From Microbacteriaceae bacterium VKM Ac-2854 (GTDB lineage: Bacteria > Actinomycetota > Actinomycetes > Actinomycetales > Microbacteriaceae): DNA of 64,000 nucleotides. Position numbers and translations under genes: made by a program. The stretch lies in NCBI GenBank assembly GCA_013205085.1, contig JABMLH010000001.1:682001-746000 (forward strand), in the 5' to 3' direction. This document shows, piece after piece, positions 28,637-35,155 of the stretch. The first letter of the stretch is position 1; each line of letters begins with the position of its first letter. Below the pieces are notes generated by a model. That model was given only the letters and a program-made list of their open reading frames with translations. It was not told where the DNA came from and made no database searches.

Positions 28637-29479
28637 TCAGTACGTCTCCGCGGACGGGAGGCCGTAGAACGTCTCGAGGGTGGTCGCGCCGGAGTCGTGA
28701 TAGCGGGTCGCGGGGGCGACGCCGATGTAGCGGTAGTGCCACGGCTCGTACTCGTAGCCGGTGGTCGCGGTCTGGCCGTCGGGGTAGCGCAGCACGAAGC
28801 CGAAGCGCCAGGATTCGGCGGCGAGCCACTGCCCGGACGGCGCGTCGCCGAGGCAGCGATCGCTCAGGCCGCAGCCGCTGACGTCGTCGAGGATGTCCAT
28901 GGCGAGCCCGGTCTGGTGCTCGCTGAATCCGGGGCGGGCGCTGGTGAGATCGGCGCCGGTCTGCCCGAGCTCGGCGACCCAGTTGTTGTAGACCCGGGTC
29001 TGCACGCTGTAGCCCCGGTAGCCGCTCTGCGCGATCAGCCCGTGCCCGGCGTCCGCCGCTGCGGCGAACATGCTCGCCAGCGCGGCGGCCGCCTCGGTGC
29101 GCATCTCCTCGCCACCGGCGACGCTGACCAGGTCGGCCGGCACGTAGTCGGCCGCACCGGCGAGTGGACGCTTCTTGTTGACCACGACCTCGAGGCTCGA
29201 GGCCGTGTCGAGGTCGGCGACCGGCGTCGGGGTCGGGGTCGGGGTGGGCGTGGGCGTCGGCGTCTCGACGGGCATCGCAGTCGCGGTCGCGGTCGCGGTG
29301 GCCGTGGCCGTCGCCGTCTCGACCGGCGCGACCGCTGGGCTCGCCGTCGCCGCGACCTCGACGGAGGCGGGCTGCACCGCGAATCCGATCGTCACCACCA
29401 CGGCGGCCACCAGAAGCACCGCGGCGCTGCCGATCAGGATGCCGCGGCGGCGGCGACGTCGCCGGGTGCGCTCGCTCAT
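28637..29479 (-). CDS. VanY-type D-alanyl-D-alanine carboxypeptidase, membrane-anchored
   Basis: The ATG at 29479 gives 280 residues. An Arg-rich cytoplasmic start (SERTRRRRRRRG) and one membrane helix (ILIGSAAVLLVAAVVVTIGFA) are followed by low-complexity Ala-Thr and Thr-Pro repeats forming an extracellular stalk. The M15B peptidase domain follows, with IAQSGYRGYSVQ, SEHQTGLAMDILD (zinc His and Asp) and the EPWHYRYIG motif (catalytic Glu, zinc His). It trims D-Ala from peptidoglycan stem peptides. Nothing nearby suggests vancomycin resistance; a housekeeping wall role is likely. Confidence 0.9.
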   Translation of the reverse strand: MSERTRRRRRRRGILIGSAAVLLVAAVVVTIGFAVQPASVEVAATASPAVAPVETATATATATATATAMPVETPTPTPTPTPTPTPVADLDTASSLEVVVNKKRPLAGAADYVPADLVSVAGGEEMRTEAAAALASMFAAAADAGHGLIAQSGYRGYSVQTRVYNNWVAELGQTGADLTSARPGFSEHQTGLAMDILDDVSGCGLSDRCLGDAPSGQWLAAESWRFGFVLRYPDGQTATTGYEYEPWHYRYIGVAPATRYHDSGATTLETFYGLPSAETY

Positions 29480-29496
29480 CCCGCTCGCGTTCCGTC

Positions 29497-30039
29497 TCAG
29501 CCGAGCAGGGCGGGCAGCTGCAGCACGAGCCACGGCGAGAACGCCCACGGTGTGGCCTTCACTGCTGCGAGGGTCTGTGCGGCGTCCACCCACTCGTAGT
29601 CCATGACCTCGTCGGGCCGCGGATCGAGCGCGTCGCGGGAGGAGAGGGTCGCGGTGTAGACGGGGCAGATCTCGTTCTCGACGATGCCGCTGGCATCGAC
29701 GGCGCGGTAGCGGAACTGCGGCAGCGCGACCTCGAGGGAGGCGAGCGTCGCGCCCAGCTCGCGGTCGGCCCGGCGCACCACGGCGTCCTCGATCCGCTCG
29801 CCGGGAGCGGGATGACCACAGAAGGAGTTGGTCCAGACCCCCGGCCAGGTCTTCTTCTCCAGCGCGCGGCGGGTCACCAGCAGCGCGCCGTCCGGAGCGA
29901 AGATGTGGCAGGAGAACGCGAGGTGCAGCCGGGTGTCGGTATCGTGCACCGTCGCCTTGTCGGTCGTTCCGATCGGCGTTCCTTCTTCGTCCAGGAGGAC
30001 GACCTGCTCGATCTCTTCGGTCACCGGCGCTGCATTCAT
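29497..30039 (-). CDS. idi: Isopentenyl-diphosphate delta-isomerase, type I
   Basis: The 180-residue Nudix-fold enzyme interconverts IPP and DMAPP, the starters for the carotenoid chain made by the divergent genes. The active-site Cys lies in NSFCGHPAPGE and the Glu region in ENEICPVY. Metal-binding His residues are in TRLHLAFSCHIF. The Nudix-like segment is EDAVVRRADRELGA. The start is 86 bp from crtE, and the spacing suggests a shared regulatory region. Confidence 0.95.
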   Translation of the reverse strand: MNAAPVTEEIEQVVLLDEEGTPIGTTDKATVHDTDTRLHLAFSCHIFAPDGALLVTRRALEKKTWPGVWTNSFCGHPAPGERIEDAVVRRADRELGATLASLEVALPQFRYRAVDASGIVENEICPVYTATLSSRDALDPRPDEVMDYEWVDAAQTLAAVKATPWAFSPWLVLQLPALLG

Positions 30040-30124
30040 CGCGACAAAGCTACCTCATAGCAGTCCCGGGAGTACTTTGTCAGTCGGCTTATTGTTAGAC
30101 GGTCAAGTTTGTTAGCCTTCGGAG

Positions 30125-31195
30125 GTGGATACGCACGAGTTGGTGGTTCTGACGCGACGGCGGCAGCAGCACGTCGATGCCGTGCTCGACCGCTTCTTCG
30201 AGTTGGCGCAGCGTCGGGCGGATGCGCTCGGGCCCCGCTACGCGAATCTGTGGCAGACGCTCGCCTCGAACACCCGCGGCGGCAAGCGGTTCCGTCCGCG
30301 GATGGTCCTCAGTGCCTACGAGTCCCTCGGCGGCACCGACTTCGAGGCCGCCGCCCACCTCGGCGCCGCCTTCGAACTGCTGCACACGGCCCTGATCGTG
30401 CACGACGACGTGATCGATCGCGACTTCGTCCGCCGCGGCGGCCCCAATCTCTCCGGCAGTTACCGTGACGAGGCGCAGACCGCCGGGCTCTCCATCCCGA
30501 TCGCGGAGCATCGCGGCACCTCCGTGGCCGTCGTCGCCGGCGACCTCGCCCTCTCCGGCGCGCACCGCCTGGTCGAAGGCGTCGGTGCCGCCGACGACAT
30601 CCGCGCGCGCCTGCTCGCGATCCTCGACGAGGCGATCTTCGCCTCCGCCGCCGGTGAACTCGCCGACGTCGACTTCTCCCTGATGCCCGGCACCCCGACG
30701 GTGGACGAGGTGGTCGAGATGGCGCGCCTGAAGACCGCGGTCTACTCCTTCGAGACGCCGCTGCAGGCCGGCGCCGTGCTCGCGGGCGCCTCCGACGACG
30801 TGGTGCAGGCGCTCGGTTCGTTCGGCAGCAACATCGGCATCGCGTACCAGATCGTGGACGACCTGCTCGGGGTCTTCGGCGCCGAGCAGAGCACCGGCAA
30901 GTCGACCCTGGGCGACCTGCGCGAGGGCAAGCGCACCGTGCTGATCGCCTACGCCGCCGGCACGCCGCAGTGGCAGCGGATCGCGCCGCTGCTCGGTGAC
31001 CGCGACCTGTCGCGCGAGGACGCGGAATGCATCCGCGAACTCCTGATCAGCTGCGGATCCCGCGGCTTCGCCGAGCGGCTCGCCAGCGACTACGCGAACC
31101 GCGCCTGGGAGGCGCTGAACACGCCCGCCGTTCCCGAGGCGTTCCGCGCCGAGGTGCGTCCGTTGGTGGCCACCGTGCTGGAACGAGCCCGATGA
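30125..31195 (+). CDS. crtE: Geranylgeranyl diphosphate synthase (polyprenyl synthetase)
   Basis: The GTG inside GGAGGTG gives 356 residues. Chain-elongating prenyltransferase motifs are the first Asp-rich HDDVIDRD (residues 93-100) followed by RRGGPN, and the second VDDLLGVFG. GGKRFRPR is the usual substrate-binding start. It condenses IPP with allylic diphosphates to C20-PP for phytoene synthesis. Being first in the crtE-crtBI-crtYe-crtYf-crtEb operon supports GGPP specificity. The 85-bp gap to idi contains two GTTAG repeats but no clear consensus promoter. Confidence 0.94.
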   Translation: MDTHELVVLTRRRQQHVDAVLDRFFELAQRRADALGPRYANLWQTLASNTRGGKRFRPRMVLSAYESLGGTDFEAAAHLGAAFELLHTALIVHDDVIDRDFVRRGGPNLSGSYRDEAQTAGLSIPIAEHRGTSVAVVAGDLALSGAHRLVEGVGAADDIRARLLAILDEAIFASAAGELADVDFSLMPGTPTVDEVVEMARLKTAVYSFETPLQAGAVLAGASDDVVQALGSFGSNIGIAYQIVDDLLGVFGAEQSTGKSTLGDLREGKRTVLIAYAAGTPQWQRIAPLLGDRDLSREDAECIRELLISCGSRGFAERLASDYANRAWEALNTPAVPEAFRAEVRPLVATVLERAR

Positions 31196-31223
31196 GTTCA
31201 GCCCGGCCCGGTACGGTGAGCCG

Positions 31224-33656
31224 ATGACCCGCCAGTCCGAGCTCTACGACCGCGTCGCCCACGAGGCGGCCTCGATCGTGATCCACCGCTACTCCACCTC
31301 CTTCGGCCTCGCCGCGCGCCTGCTCGGCGGGCCCGTTCGCGGGCAGGTCGCCGACATCTACGCCCTGGTGCGGGTGGCGGATGAGATCGTCGACGGTGTC
31401 GCCTCCGAGGCGCACCTGGACCGCGCCGCCATCGAGGCCGAGCTCGATGAGTTCGAGGCCGAGACCGAGCGCGCGATGGCGACGGGCTACAGCGCGAACC
31501 TGATCGTGCACGCCTTCGGGCTCACGGCCCGCGCCTGCGGGATCGGGCCGGAGCTGACCCGGCCGTTCTTCGCCTCCATGCGCGCCGACCTGCGCGAGAC
31601 GGAGCACACGCCGGAATCCTTCGCGGAGTACGTCTACGGCTCCGCCGAGGTGGTCGGGCTGATGTGCCTGCAAGCGTTCCTCGCGGCTCCCGATGCGCCG
31701 GAGGTGTCGGAAGCGCGGCGCGCGCGGCTGGTGGACGGCGCGCGCAGACTCGGCGCCGCGTTCCAGAAGGTGAACTTCCTGCGCGACCTCTCCGCCGACG
31801 TCGACGGCCTCGGCCGCAGCTACTTCCCGGGCGTGGATCCGCACGCCCTCACCGAAGCGGACAAGCTGCGCCTGCTCGCCGACCTCGACGACGACCTGCG
31901 GGTCTCGGGCGCCATCATCGACGAGCTGCCCGGATCGAGCCGCCGCGCGGTGTGGCTGGCGCACGCGCTGTTCGCGGCGCTGTCGGCGCGGATCCGCTCG
32001 ACCCCGGCCGCCGAGTTGCTGCGCACCCGGGTGAGCGTGCCGACCGCGACCAAGGCGGCGCTCGGCGCGAAGGCTCTCGCCTACACGCCCCGGCGCCGGC
32101 GCTCGCCGGGCACCGCCGTGGTGATCGGCGGCGGCATCGCCGGGCTCGCCTCCGCCGCGCTGCTCGCGCGCGACGGCTACGACGTCACCCTGCTGGAGGC
32201 GCGCGACACCCTGGGTGGTCGCGCCGGCTCCTGGGAGCAGGGCGGCTTCCGCTTCGACACCGGGCCGTCGTGGTACCTGATGCCCGAGGTGTTCGAGCAC
32301 TTCTTCCAACTCTTCGGCACCAGCGCCGACGAGCGCCTGAACCTGGTCAAGCTCGACCCCGGCTACCGCGTCTACAGCGAAGGCCACGCCGAGCCGATCG
32401 AGATCGCCGCGGAGCTGGAGGCGAACCTCGCCGTGTTCGAGTCGGTCGAGCCCGGCGCCGGCGAGCGGATGCGCGGCTACCTCGCCTCCGCCCGCGACAC
32501 CTACGAGGTGGCCAAGCGCCGCTTCCTCTACACCAGCTTCGAGTCGTTCACCCCGCTCCTGCGCCGCGACGTGCTCACGCGGATGCCCACGCTGGCGAAG
32601 CTGCTGCTGCGCCCGCTGGACACCCTCGCGAGCGAGACCGTGACGGATCCGCGGCTGCGCCAGGTGCTCGGCTACCCGGCCGTCTTCCTCGGCTCCTCGC
32701 CGTTCGAGGCTCCGAGCATGTACCACCTGATGAGCCACCTCGACCTGGCCGACGGGGTGCTCTATCCGATGGGCGGCTTCACGACGCTGATCGAGGCGGT
32801 CCGCGACGTGGCGGTCGAGGCCGGCGTGCACATCCGGACCGGGGCGCGGGTGACGAGCATCCGCACCGCGACTTCGACGCGGGGCTCGAAGCACGCGGCG
32901 CAGGCGATCGGCGTCCAGCTGGGGGAGGAGGCGATCCCGGCCGACCTGGTCGTGAACGCCTCCGACCTGTTCACCACCGAGCAGGCGCTGTTGCCGACGC
33001 AATTGCAGACCTACGGCCCGGACTACTGGCAGACCCGCGCCCCGGGCCCCAGCGCCGTGCTGGTGATGCTGGGTGTGCGCGGCGAGCTGCCGCAGCTCGC
33101 ACACCACACGCTGCTGTTCACCACCGACTGGCACGACAACTTCTCCCGCATCTTCGGGGCCGAGACCTCGGTGCCCGATCCCGCTTCGATCTACGTCTGC
33201 AAGCCCAGCGCCACGGATCCGTCCGTCGCGCCGGAGGGGCACGAGAACCTGTTCGTGCTGGTGCCGGTGCCGGCGGATCCCGGAATCGGTTCCGGCGGTG
33301 TCGACGGCGCCGGGGACGCGCGGGTCGAGGCGATCGCGGACGCGGTGATCGAGCAGATCGCGACGTGGACCGGCGCGAGCGACCTCGCGTCGCGCGTGGT
33401 GGTGCGGCGCACGATCGGCCCCGCCGACTTCGAGCGCGACCTCGGCGCCTGGCGCGGCACGGCGCTCGGACCGGCGCACACCCTGCAGGGCAGCGCCTTC
33501 TTCCGGGCCGGCAACGTCTCGAAGAAGGTCGATGGACTCTTCTTCGCCGGTGGCTCCACGATTCCCGGGATCGGCCTGCCGATGTGCCTGATCAGCGCGG
33601 AGGTGCTGCTCAAACGCGTCCGCGGCGACGTGTCGACCGAGCCGCTGCGGTCGTGA
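31224..33656 (+). CDS. crtBI: Fused phytoene synthase-phytoene desaturase (CrtB-CrtI)
   Basis: One open frame of 810 codons carries two complete enzymes. Residues 1 to about 285 form phytoene synthase, joining two GGPP molecules: first Asp-rich ADEIVDG at 52-58 and NFLRDLSADVDGLGRSYFP from 184. After a short basic linker (AYTPRRRRSPG), residues from about 297 form the FAD-dependent desaturase making lycopene: dinucleotide loop VVIGGGIAGLASA from 299, DTLGGRAGSW, RFDTGPSWYLMPEVF, and the C-terminal FFAGGSTIPGIGLPMCLISA. Normally these are two overlapping genes. A GTG at 32118 could in theory restart CrtI, but it would cut off its N terminus and has no good ribosome site. Confidence 0.9.
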   Translation: MTRQSELYDRVAHEAASIVIHRYSTSFGLAARLLGGPVRGQVADIYALVRVADEIVDGVASEAHLDRAAIEAELDEFEAETERAMATGYSANLIVHAFGLTARACGIGPELTRPFFASMRADLRETEHTPESFAEYVYGSAEVVGLMCLQAFLAAPDAPEVSEARRARLVDGARRLGAAFQKVNFLRDLSADVDGLGRSYFPGVDPHALTEADKLRLLADLDDDLRVSGAIIDELPGSSRRAVWLAHALFAALSARIRSTPAAELLRTRVSVPTATKAALGAKALAYTPRRRRSPGTAVVIGGGIAGLASAALLARDGYDVTLLEARDTLGGRAGSWEQGGFRFDTGPSWYLMPEVFEHFFQLFGTSADERLNLVKLDPGYRVYSEGHAEPIEIAAELEANLAVFESVEPGAGERMRGYLASARDTYEVAKRRFLYTSFESFTPLLRRDVLTRMPTLAKLLLRPLDTLASETVTDPRLRQVLGYPAVFLGSSPFEAPSMYHLMSHLDLADGVLYPMGGFTTLIEAVRDVAVEAGVHIRTGARVTSIRTATSTRGSKHAAQAIGVQLGEEAIPADLVVNASDLFTTEQALLPTQLQTYGPDYWQTRAPGPSAVLVMLGVRGELPQLAHHTLLFTTDWHDNFSRIFGAETSVPDPASIYVCKPSATDPSVAPEGHENLFVLVPVPADPGIGSGGVDGAGDARVEAIADAVIEQIATWTGASDLASRVVVRRTIGPADFERDLGAWRGTALGPAHTLQGSAFFRAGNVSKKVDGLFFAGGSTIPGIGLPMCLISAEVLLKRVRGDVSTEPLRS

Positions 33657-33669
33657 GCGGGGTCGTGGC

Positions 33670-33993
33670 GTGAGCCTGATCTACCTGGGCGCCCTTCTGG
33701 TCTCGCTGACCGGGATGGTGGTGCTGGATCGGCGCTTCGGCCTGTTCTTCTGGGCGGACGCGCGTCGCGCCGCGATCGTGCTCGCTGTGGGCATCGCCTT
33801 CTTCTTGGTCTGGGACGCGTTCGGCATCGGCCTGGGCATCTTCTTCCGCGGCGAGACGAACTTCATGACCGGCGTGCTGATCGCGCCGGAGCTGCCGCTG
33901 GAAGAGGTCTTCTTCCTCGCGCTGCTGTGCTACCTGACCATGAACGTGCACGGCTTCTTCGCGCGGTTGCTGGTTCGGCGGGAGCGCGCGTGA
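33670..33993 (+). CDS. crtYe: Heterodimeric C50 carotenoid cyclase subunit A
   Basis: The 107-residue membrane protein has three hydrophobic helices (LIYLGALLVSLTGMVVL, AAIVLAVGIAFFLVWDAFGI, LPLEEVFFLALLCYLTMNVH). The conserved WDAFGI and PELPLEEVFF segments are seen in CrtYe/CrtYc/LbtB lycopene cyclase subunits. GTG start, 14 bp after crtBI, and overlapping the next gene (GTGA). It works with the next subunit. Whether the ring made is beta, gamma or epsilon cannot be told from sequence alone. Confidence 0.9.
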   Translation: MSLIYLGALLVSLTGMVVLDRRFGLFFWADARRAAIVLAVGIAFFLVWDAFGIGLGIFFRGETNFMTGVLIAPELPLEEVFFLALLCYLTMNVHGFFARLLVRRERA

Positions 33994-34295
33994 CGTACTG
34001 GGGGCTGAACGCCGTCTTCCTCGCCGTCGTCGCGGTGACCGTGCTGCTCGCCGCGCGGCGGCTCCGCTGGCGCGCGGTGGCCGCGACGTTGGGCATCCTG
34101 TTGCTGATGACCGCCGTGTTCGACAACATCATGATCGGCATCGGACTCGTCGACTACGACCCGACGCGGATCAGCGGGGCCTTCCTCGGCATCGCGCCGC
34201 TGGAGGACTTCGCCTACGCGATCGCCACCGCCCTGCTCCTTCCCGCCCTCTGGCAGTCGCTGCCCGCCCGCCACCCACAGGACACCTCTCGATGA
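33990..34295 (+). CDS. crtYf: Heterodimeric C50 carotenoid cyclase subunit B
   Basis: The GTG overlaps the stop of subunit A, and the product has 101 residues with three helices. The segment FDNIMIGIGLVDYD and the PLEDFAYAI motif are typical of CrtYf/CrtYd/LbtC. With subunit A it cyclises the elongated chain ends, in the same membrane as crtEb. The ATG of crtEb overlaps its stop. Confidence 0.9.
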   Translation: MTYWGLNAVFLAVVAVTVLLAARRLRWRAVAATLGILLLMTAVFDNIMIGIGLVDYDPTRISGAFLGIAPLEDFAYAIATALLLPALWQSLPARHPQDTSR

Positions 34296-35155
34296 ACCCG
34301 TTGCGCGCCCTCTTGTTGTCCAGCCGTCCGTTGAGTTGGGTGAACACCGCGTATCCGTTCGCCGCCGCGTACCTGCTCACCACCCGCGAGATCGACCTCG
34401 CCTTCGTGCTCGGCACGATCTACTTCCTGATCCCGTACAACCTCGCGATGTACGGCATCAACGACGTGTTCGACTACGAGTCCGACCTGCGCAATCCGCG
34501 CAAGGGCGGAGTCGAGGGCGCGATCCTGGACAAGCGGATGCACCGGCTCACGATCATCGCGGCCATCGTCACGAACGTGCCGTTCCTGGTCGCACTCGTG
34601 CTGCTCGGCGGGCCGGGCTCGTGGCTGGTGCTGGCCGTCAGCGTGTTCGCGGTGATCGCCTACAGCGCGCCTCGCCTGCGCTTCAAGGAGCGGCCCTTCG
34701 TCGACTCGCTGACCTCGTCGACCCACTTCGTCAGCCCGGCCGTGTACGGCTTGGTGCTGGCCGGGGCCGCGTTCACGCCGGGGCTCTGGGCGCTGCTGAT
34801 CGCGTTCTTCCTGTGGGGGATCGCGAGCCACGCCTTCGGCTCGGTGCAGGACATCAAGGCCGACCGCGAGGCCGACATCGGCTCGGTCGGCACCGTGATC
34901 GGGGCGAAGGCGACGGTGCGGCTCTCCGTCGTGGCGTATCTCGCGGGCGGCGTTCTGCTGCTTTTCCTGCCGTGGCCCGGCTCCCTCGCCGCGATCCTGG
35001 TGCTGCCCTACGCCGCGAGCATCCTGCCGTTCTGGTCGTTGACGGATGCCGACTGCGAGTCCGCGAACGCCGGCTGGCGCCGCTTCCTCACCCTGAACTT
35101 CGTCACCGGCTTCCTGGTGACGATGCTCCTCATCGCCTGGTGGTTCCGCGCCTGA
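34292..35155 (+). CDS. crtEb: Lycopene elongase (UbiA-family prenyltransferase)
   Basis: The 287-residue integral membrane protein adds C5 units from DMAPP to the lycopene ends, giving C50 flavuxanthin-type carotenoids. The UbiA Asp-rich motifs are NDVFDYESDLRNPRKGG and QDIKADREADIGSVGT, and about eight helices are present. Being the last gene of the operon with crtYe/crtYf identifies it as CrtEb/LbtA rather than a quinone or chlorophyll prenyltransferase. The end product would be decaprenoxanthin, sarcinaxanthin or C.p.450. Confidence 0.93.
   Translation: MNPLRALLLSSRPLSWVNTAYPFAAAYLLTTREIDLAFVLGTIYFLIPYNLAMYGINDVFDYESDLRNPRKGGVEGAILDKRMHRLTIIAAIVTNVPFLVALVLLGGPGSWLVLAVSVFAVIAYSAPRLRFKERPFVDSLTSSTHFVSPAVYGLVLAGAAFTPGLWALLIAFFLWGIASHAFGSVQDIKADREADIGSVGTVIGAKATVRLSVVAYLAGGVLLLFLPWPGSLAAILVLPYAASILPFWSLTDADCESANAGWRRFLTLNFVTGFLVTMLLIAWWFRA

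Follow-up and report, generated by a model that had tools for sequence, protein, structure and literature searches.

The window, i.e. the complete stretch of 64,000 nucleotides that was analyzed, contains a gene, crtBI (31224..33656, forward strand), in which phytoene synthase and phytoene desaturase are fused, with both domains in one frame of 810 amino acids. crtBI is a true, genus-wide fusion of two consecutive pathway enzymes for a yellow pigment. We consider it very probable that it encodes a single two-domain CrtB-CrtI protein feeding a C50 carotenoid pathway, that the fusion came about by a length change, and that the internal start was lost; the activities, the absence of a separate CrtI and the route of origin are read from sequence. 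Phytoene would be formed from two molecules of geranylgeranyl diphosphate by the N-terminal CrtB domain and desaturated to lycopene by the FAD-dependent CrtI domain at the C terminus, and crtEb together with crtYe/crtYf would convert lycopene to a cyclic C50 carotenoid, presumably of the decaprenoxanthin type. Hypothetically, as proposed in the initial annotation, the fusion might also channel phytoene from one domain to the other and hold the two enzymes at a fixed ratio. The strongest part of the finding is the patchy, repeated occurrence of the fusion in related bacteria.

Domains of the fused protein

Translation of crtBI gives 810 residues without an internal stop, with a calculated protein mass of 86.9 kDa. 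The CrtB domain (31224..32045, residues 1-274) was matched by PF00494 (SQS_PSY) over residues 21-274 with 116.6 bits (cut-off 26; profile positions 2-261 of 263). The CrtI domain (32115..33653, residues 298-810) has a glycine-rich nucleotide-binding motif from residue 302 and was matched by TIGR02734 (crtI_fam) over residues 298-808 with 551.8 bits (cut-off 238.1; profile positions 1-497 of 504). By score above the curated cut-off and full profile coverage, crtBI belongs to the CrtI family, and by score it also belongs to the squalene/phytoene synthase superfamily (PF00494). This superfamily is defined by two Asp-rich DxxxD motifs. Both are present in the CrtB domain, as DEIVD (residues 53-57) and DLSAD (residues 188-192), and we take them to be catalytic; in alignment A1, D53 and D57 were at least 90% conserved, and D188 and D192 were invariant. 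The Pfam and TIGR02734 matches over both halves and the unbroken translation bear out the initial annotation, which had described a complete CrtB and a complete CrtI in one 810-codon frame, without a stop codon at the junction.

The NCBIfam equivalog cut-offs for 15-cis-phytoene synthase CrtB were not reached by crtBI (NF042419, 41.5 bits versus a cut-off of 480; NF045686, 41.7 bits versus 550), and crtBI is not assigned to either equivalog. As these scores are far under the cut-offs, the label "phytoene synthase" rests on the Pfam match, the motifs and the operon. Among the best 60 of 85 matches to solved structures by sequence, the CrtI part came nearest to a gamma-carotene desaturase (4rep) and a phytoene dehydrogenase (4dgk); the CrtB part had a weaker counterpart in CrtM (8is6, E 9.2e-6).

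The genome has one PF00494 match, inside crtBI, and a second CrtB was not indicated by any further match to this profile at E ≤ 0.001. CrtI-like matches elsewhere in the genome were partial, with E-values of 1.3e-5 or weaker, and a separate CrtI is probably absent.

Antisense to crtBI, and in codon register with it, runs another open frame of exactly 810 codons (31047-33479, reverse strand), which probably just follows from third codon positions rich in G+C. Because such a frame exists, frame length alone says little here, and the reality of crtBI is settled by homology on both sides and by conservation.

Conservation of the fusion and of its linker

An unbroken crtBI frame was found in 13 of the 15 genomes of the genus, source genome included. 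In the other two (G005 and G014) crtBI is broken across contigs, and in G014 the CrtI portion also shifts frame, which is probably an assembly flaw. Separate genes in 77 of 80 named loci (best 80 of at least 588) might suggest that the genes are separate here too, and that an assembly or base-calling error joined the frame. We give this reading next to no credence, as it is in effect refuted by the 12 other genus genomes, which have the same unbroken frame and linkers that vary by whole codons. The comparison with sister genomes, which had been proposed as a check for a stop or start between the domains, has therefore given no sign of a single-base error, and a sequencing error as the cause of the joined frame is ruled out. 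A fusion confined to one genome is ruled out by the genus copies and by Clavibacter (see below).

The linker (32046..32114, residues 275-297) is basic, with PRRRRSPG from residue 289, in agreement with the short basic linker placed earlier at about residues 286-297. Of the 12 other intact genus copies, 11 have a longer linker that differs from it, and across all 13 the linker length varies by whole codons. In these 13 copies, pN/pS was 0.22 for CrtB, 0.25 for CrtI and 0.42 for the linker, the values being pooled over pairs of related sequences and the linker being a short stretch of uncertain alignment. The linker looks constrained as protein. A chance open frame in G+C-rich DNA is ruled out by this constraint and by the homology on both sides. 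If the fusion were made and then cleaved at the linker to release two separate enzymes, a short, basic linker of variable sequence and length would be in keeping with it, but the linker is still constrained, and we regard such processing as very unlikely.

Internal starts and free CrtI

Between codons 147 and 353, crtBI is without ATG. The in-frame alternative starts among codons 261-305 are TTG 265 and GTG 270, 272, 299 and 300. According to the initial annotation, none of the internal starts is good. This holds fairly well: GTG 299 and GTG 300 have Shine-Dalgarno scores of -3.7 and -2.5 kcal/mol, near the median of random CrtB positions (-3.3 kcal/mol). GTG 272 has a moderate score of -5.8 kcal/mol, near the weak quartile of separate CrtI starts (-5.7 kcal/mol). 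The median for separate CrtI starts was -6.5 kcal/mol, in a control that uses the top-scoring one among several candidates and is favored by this choice. The position like GTG 272 in the nearest congener scored -1.4 kcal/mol, and the congener locus L007 has a TTG at -7.2 kcal/mol, roughly 65 codons upstream of the CrtI motif.

An ATG near the junction is absent from all 13 intact genus copies, and an ATG at the CrtI start is also absent from three fusions of genus g96. In the nine fused Clavibacter loci scored, two of which (L035 and L141) are apparently the same contig, an ATG with a Shine-Dalgarno match of -7.4 kcal/mol is kept at the old CrtI start. Internal starts in Kocuria are a GTG at -8.6 kcal/mol in L036, and candidates at -2.6 and -1.7 kcal/mol in L037.

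Production of free CrtI in addition to the fusion, through initiation within the frame at GTG 272, 299 or 300, would draw on the scores of these three codons, on the TTG of L007, and on the stronger internal starts of fused Clavibacter and of Kocuria L036. We nevertheless find it unlikely, as the 13 intact genus copies have no junction ATG and most GTG scores are near the random value. Because the internal ATG with its Shine-Dalgarno match is kept in Clavibacter and gone in the source genus, the fusion is probably obligate in the latter, whereas Clavibacter may make both the fusion and free CrtI.

The carotenoid operon and its neighbors

The genes around crtBI appear to form a C50-type carotenoid gene set, as judged from their family matches. 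The isopentenyl-diphosphate delta-isomerase gene idi (29497..30039, reverse strand; TIGR02150, 153 bits, cut-off 105.8) is divergent from the operon. Upstream of crtBI lies a crtE-like polyprenyl diphosphate synthase gene (30125..31195, forward strand; PF00348, 167.8 bits, cut-off 27), which reached no cut-off among the 16 NCBIfam models listed, and for which the operon suggests a geranylgeranyl product. Downstream, and also on the forward strand, are genes for crtYe-like (33670..33993; TIGR03462, 58.5 bits, cut-off 39.4) and crtYf-like lycopene cyclase subunits (33927..34295; PF18916, 31.6 bits, cut-off 27; TIGR03462, 49.6 bits, cut-off 39.4). They are followed by a crtEb-like lycopene elongase gene of the UbiA family (34292..35155, forward strand; PF01040, 98.9 bits, cut-off 34.2; NF009608 prenyltransferase, 484.6 bits, cut-off 217), the name crtEb being assigned by operon position. 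If the listed starts are right, the crtYe and crtYf ORFs overlap by 67 bases (33927-33993) in different frames; the true start of crtYf may lie further downstream than listed.

The order idi(-)-crtE-crtB-crtI-crtYe-crtYf-crtEb was found in the source genome, in the three congeners examined (L007, L011 and L018) and in Clavibacter L035. Six of the eight separate named loci examined have it as well; L110 has idi on the forward strand, and L100 has no idi.

Within 30113-30127, a TAGCCT ends 6 bases 5' of the crtE GTG, and TTGTTAGCCT is common to the source genome and 12 congeners. With this shared sequence and without a shared Shine-Dalgarno, the crtE transcript may be leaderless. A VanY-type carboxypeptidase domain lies at 28637-29593 (reverse strand; 126.5 bits). 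None of the five NCBIfam models listed reaches its cut-off there, and the gene seems to encode a common kind of cell-wall enzyme.

Distribution of fused and separate genes

In a collection of named genomes, at least 597 stretches matched, of which 588 could be confirmed, and the top 80 were retained. Among these best 80 of at least 588 loci, crtB and crtI are separate in 77 and fused in 3, namely those of Clavibacter michiganensis subsp. tessellarius, Kocuria dechangensis and one Kocuria MAG cut at the contig end. The overlap between crtB and crtI was 4 bases in 107 of the 140 separate loci scored, a count that takes the best Shine-Dalgarno candidate as the start, which is a possible bias, and that includes a few repeated loci. 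For most of the relatives examined, both results support the earlier statement that the genes are separate and overlapping in related actinobacteria.

A search of the family gave a match in 338 of 398 genomes at E ≤ 1e-60. The full-length, stop-free matches among those listed numbered 10, from the source genome and nine congeners, and two further full-length matches among those listed contain a stop. These two, in G080 and G023 (L115 and L116), keep CrtB and CrtI in register but have a single in-frame stop between the domains, which rules them out as fusions. Clavibacter-type fusions appear in the family list as partial matches. From this list, 40 further regions were picked for direct inspection, and 8 of them were fused, all from Clavibacter (g35), for which nine regions were examined. 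The linker of the g35 genome G387 is the one of the named tessellarius locus, and as g35 and the source genome belong to one family, the latter lies in Microbacteriaceae. In a census of Clavibacter, 16 of 18 genomes had the fused gene, and two (G228 and G1047) had separate genes.

The search of the order, at a strict threshold at which more divergent fusions would be missed (E ≤ 1e-260), was passed by 16 of 396 genomes, 12 with separate genes and 4 with full-length fusions, i.e. the source genome and three of genus g96. A census of g96 found a match in 32 of 38 genomes and a fusion in 3 of the 38; of 27 further loci, 26 were separate and one had CrtI only, and two more genomes matched without a locus. 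The g96 fusion L176 had no crtE, crtYe, crtYf, crtEb or idi match in the flanks examined, and its gene setting differs from the C50 operon. A class-wide search of 296 genomes, equally prone to miss divergent fusions at E ≤ 1e-270, found the source genome alone. In a tblastn search of plasmids, none of the 11 records covered 80% of the crtBI protein.

Gains, losses and route of origin

Four changes of the fusion label are needed on the CrtI tree, which has 167 rows (159 different, 26 fused). Three are needed on a tree of joined CrtB and CrtI with 55 hand-chosen rows (16 fused and 39 separate), among them 7 of the 13 genus copies. The joined tree and the clade tests below rest on quick LG+G4 trees with long branches, which do not separate several gains from one gain with losses. 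A single clade of all 16 fused rows and the unfused Clavibacter L143 was rejected (p-AU 0.0035). Groupings of the source genus with Clavibacter (p 0.16) and of the source genus with Kocuria and g96 (p 0.30) were not rejected. The joined tree groups Kocuria with g96 at a support of 93, the CrtI tree at 45. The CrtI tree places the source genus next to a group that includes Frigoribacterium (support 96), the joined tree next to a different one (support 83). Since one clade for all fusions was rejected, the fusion would have been gained several times, or gained and then lost in places. Repeated gain is the simpler of these readings, and fewer gains with losses, or transfer, are possible.

Clavibacter plausibly shows the route of fusion. 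In its two unfused genomes, CrtB ends in the TGA of an ATGA at the CrtI start, and in the 16 fused genomes CrtB is in the frame of CrtI. Most likely, a minor change in length close to the 3' end of crtB brought it into the frame of the downstream crtI, which it overlaps by 4 bases in most relatives. The source genus would then have lost the internal crtI start, probably leaving the fused protein as the sole source of both activities.

On balance, we lean towards a recurrent evolutionary switch in actinobacteria that make carotenoids: crtB-crtI pairs, translationally coupled through a 4-base overlap, would have fused by small changes of length in a linker under low constraint, on perhaps three or four occasions (in the source genus, Clavibacter, Kocuria and g96). 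Clavibacter would exist in both states and, when fused, probably make the fusion and free CrtI, while the fusion would be obligate in the source genus. Our confidence in this scenario is limited because the trees also allow a smaller number of gains with later losses.

Fused and unfused forms of these two consecutive enzymes exist in nature, even within Clavibacter (16 versus 2 of the 18 genomes). Such pairs allow the effect of fusion on phytoene leakage or pigment yield to be tested, and the natural linkers may be of use in pigment engineering.

Comparison with known systems

A fusion of this kind is already in print, and the novelty implied by the initial annotation did not survive: the fusion is genus-wide, occurs in Clavibacter and in two Kocuria loci, and was named crtBI in Rathayibacter toxicus in 2017, according to a published gene list (PMC5552033). 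A literature search of titles and abstract openings, with few subscription journals, found no report of recurrence of the fusion or of the mixture in Clavibacter. This silence is weak evidence of absence, and we make a modest claim that the patchy recurrence and the loss or retention of the internal start were not found in print.

By name, the R. toxicus gene AYW78_09710, a "bifunctional phytoene synthase/oxidoreductase" in the gene list of the 2017 paper, is the same fusion, and its cluster holds the same six-gene set of crtEb, crtYf, crtYe, crtBI, crtE and isomerase (PMC5552033). The gene in the window likewise has synthase followed by desaturase in one frame, in a cluster with crtE, crtYe, crtYf, crtEb and an isomerase gene. 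Judging from this resemblance and from the family, the source genus is probably Rathayibacter. The fusions of C. michiganensis subsp. tessellarius (L035) and Kocuria (L036 and L037) have the same domain order in one frame; the neighbors of L035 are those of the source locus, as are those of L036 except for an idi match. The Clavibacter fusion differs in its longer linker, in the internal ATG with Shine-Dalgarno that it keeps, and in being unfused in 2 of 18 genomes. The trifunctional CrtIBY protein of thraustochytrids, as described in PMC10016063, likewise joins phytoene desaturase and synthase, but it is eukaryotic, has the order I-B-Y and includes a cyclase. C50-producing actinobacteria such as Marisediminicola, going by the account in PMC6669644, have homologous domains in the same gene order, but as two genes, crtB and crtI.
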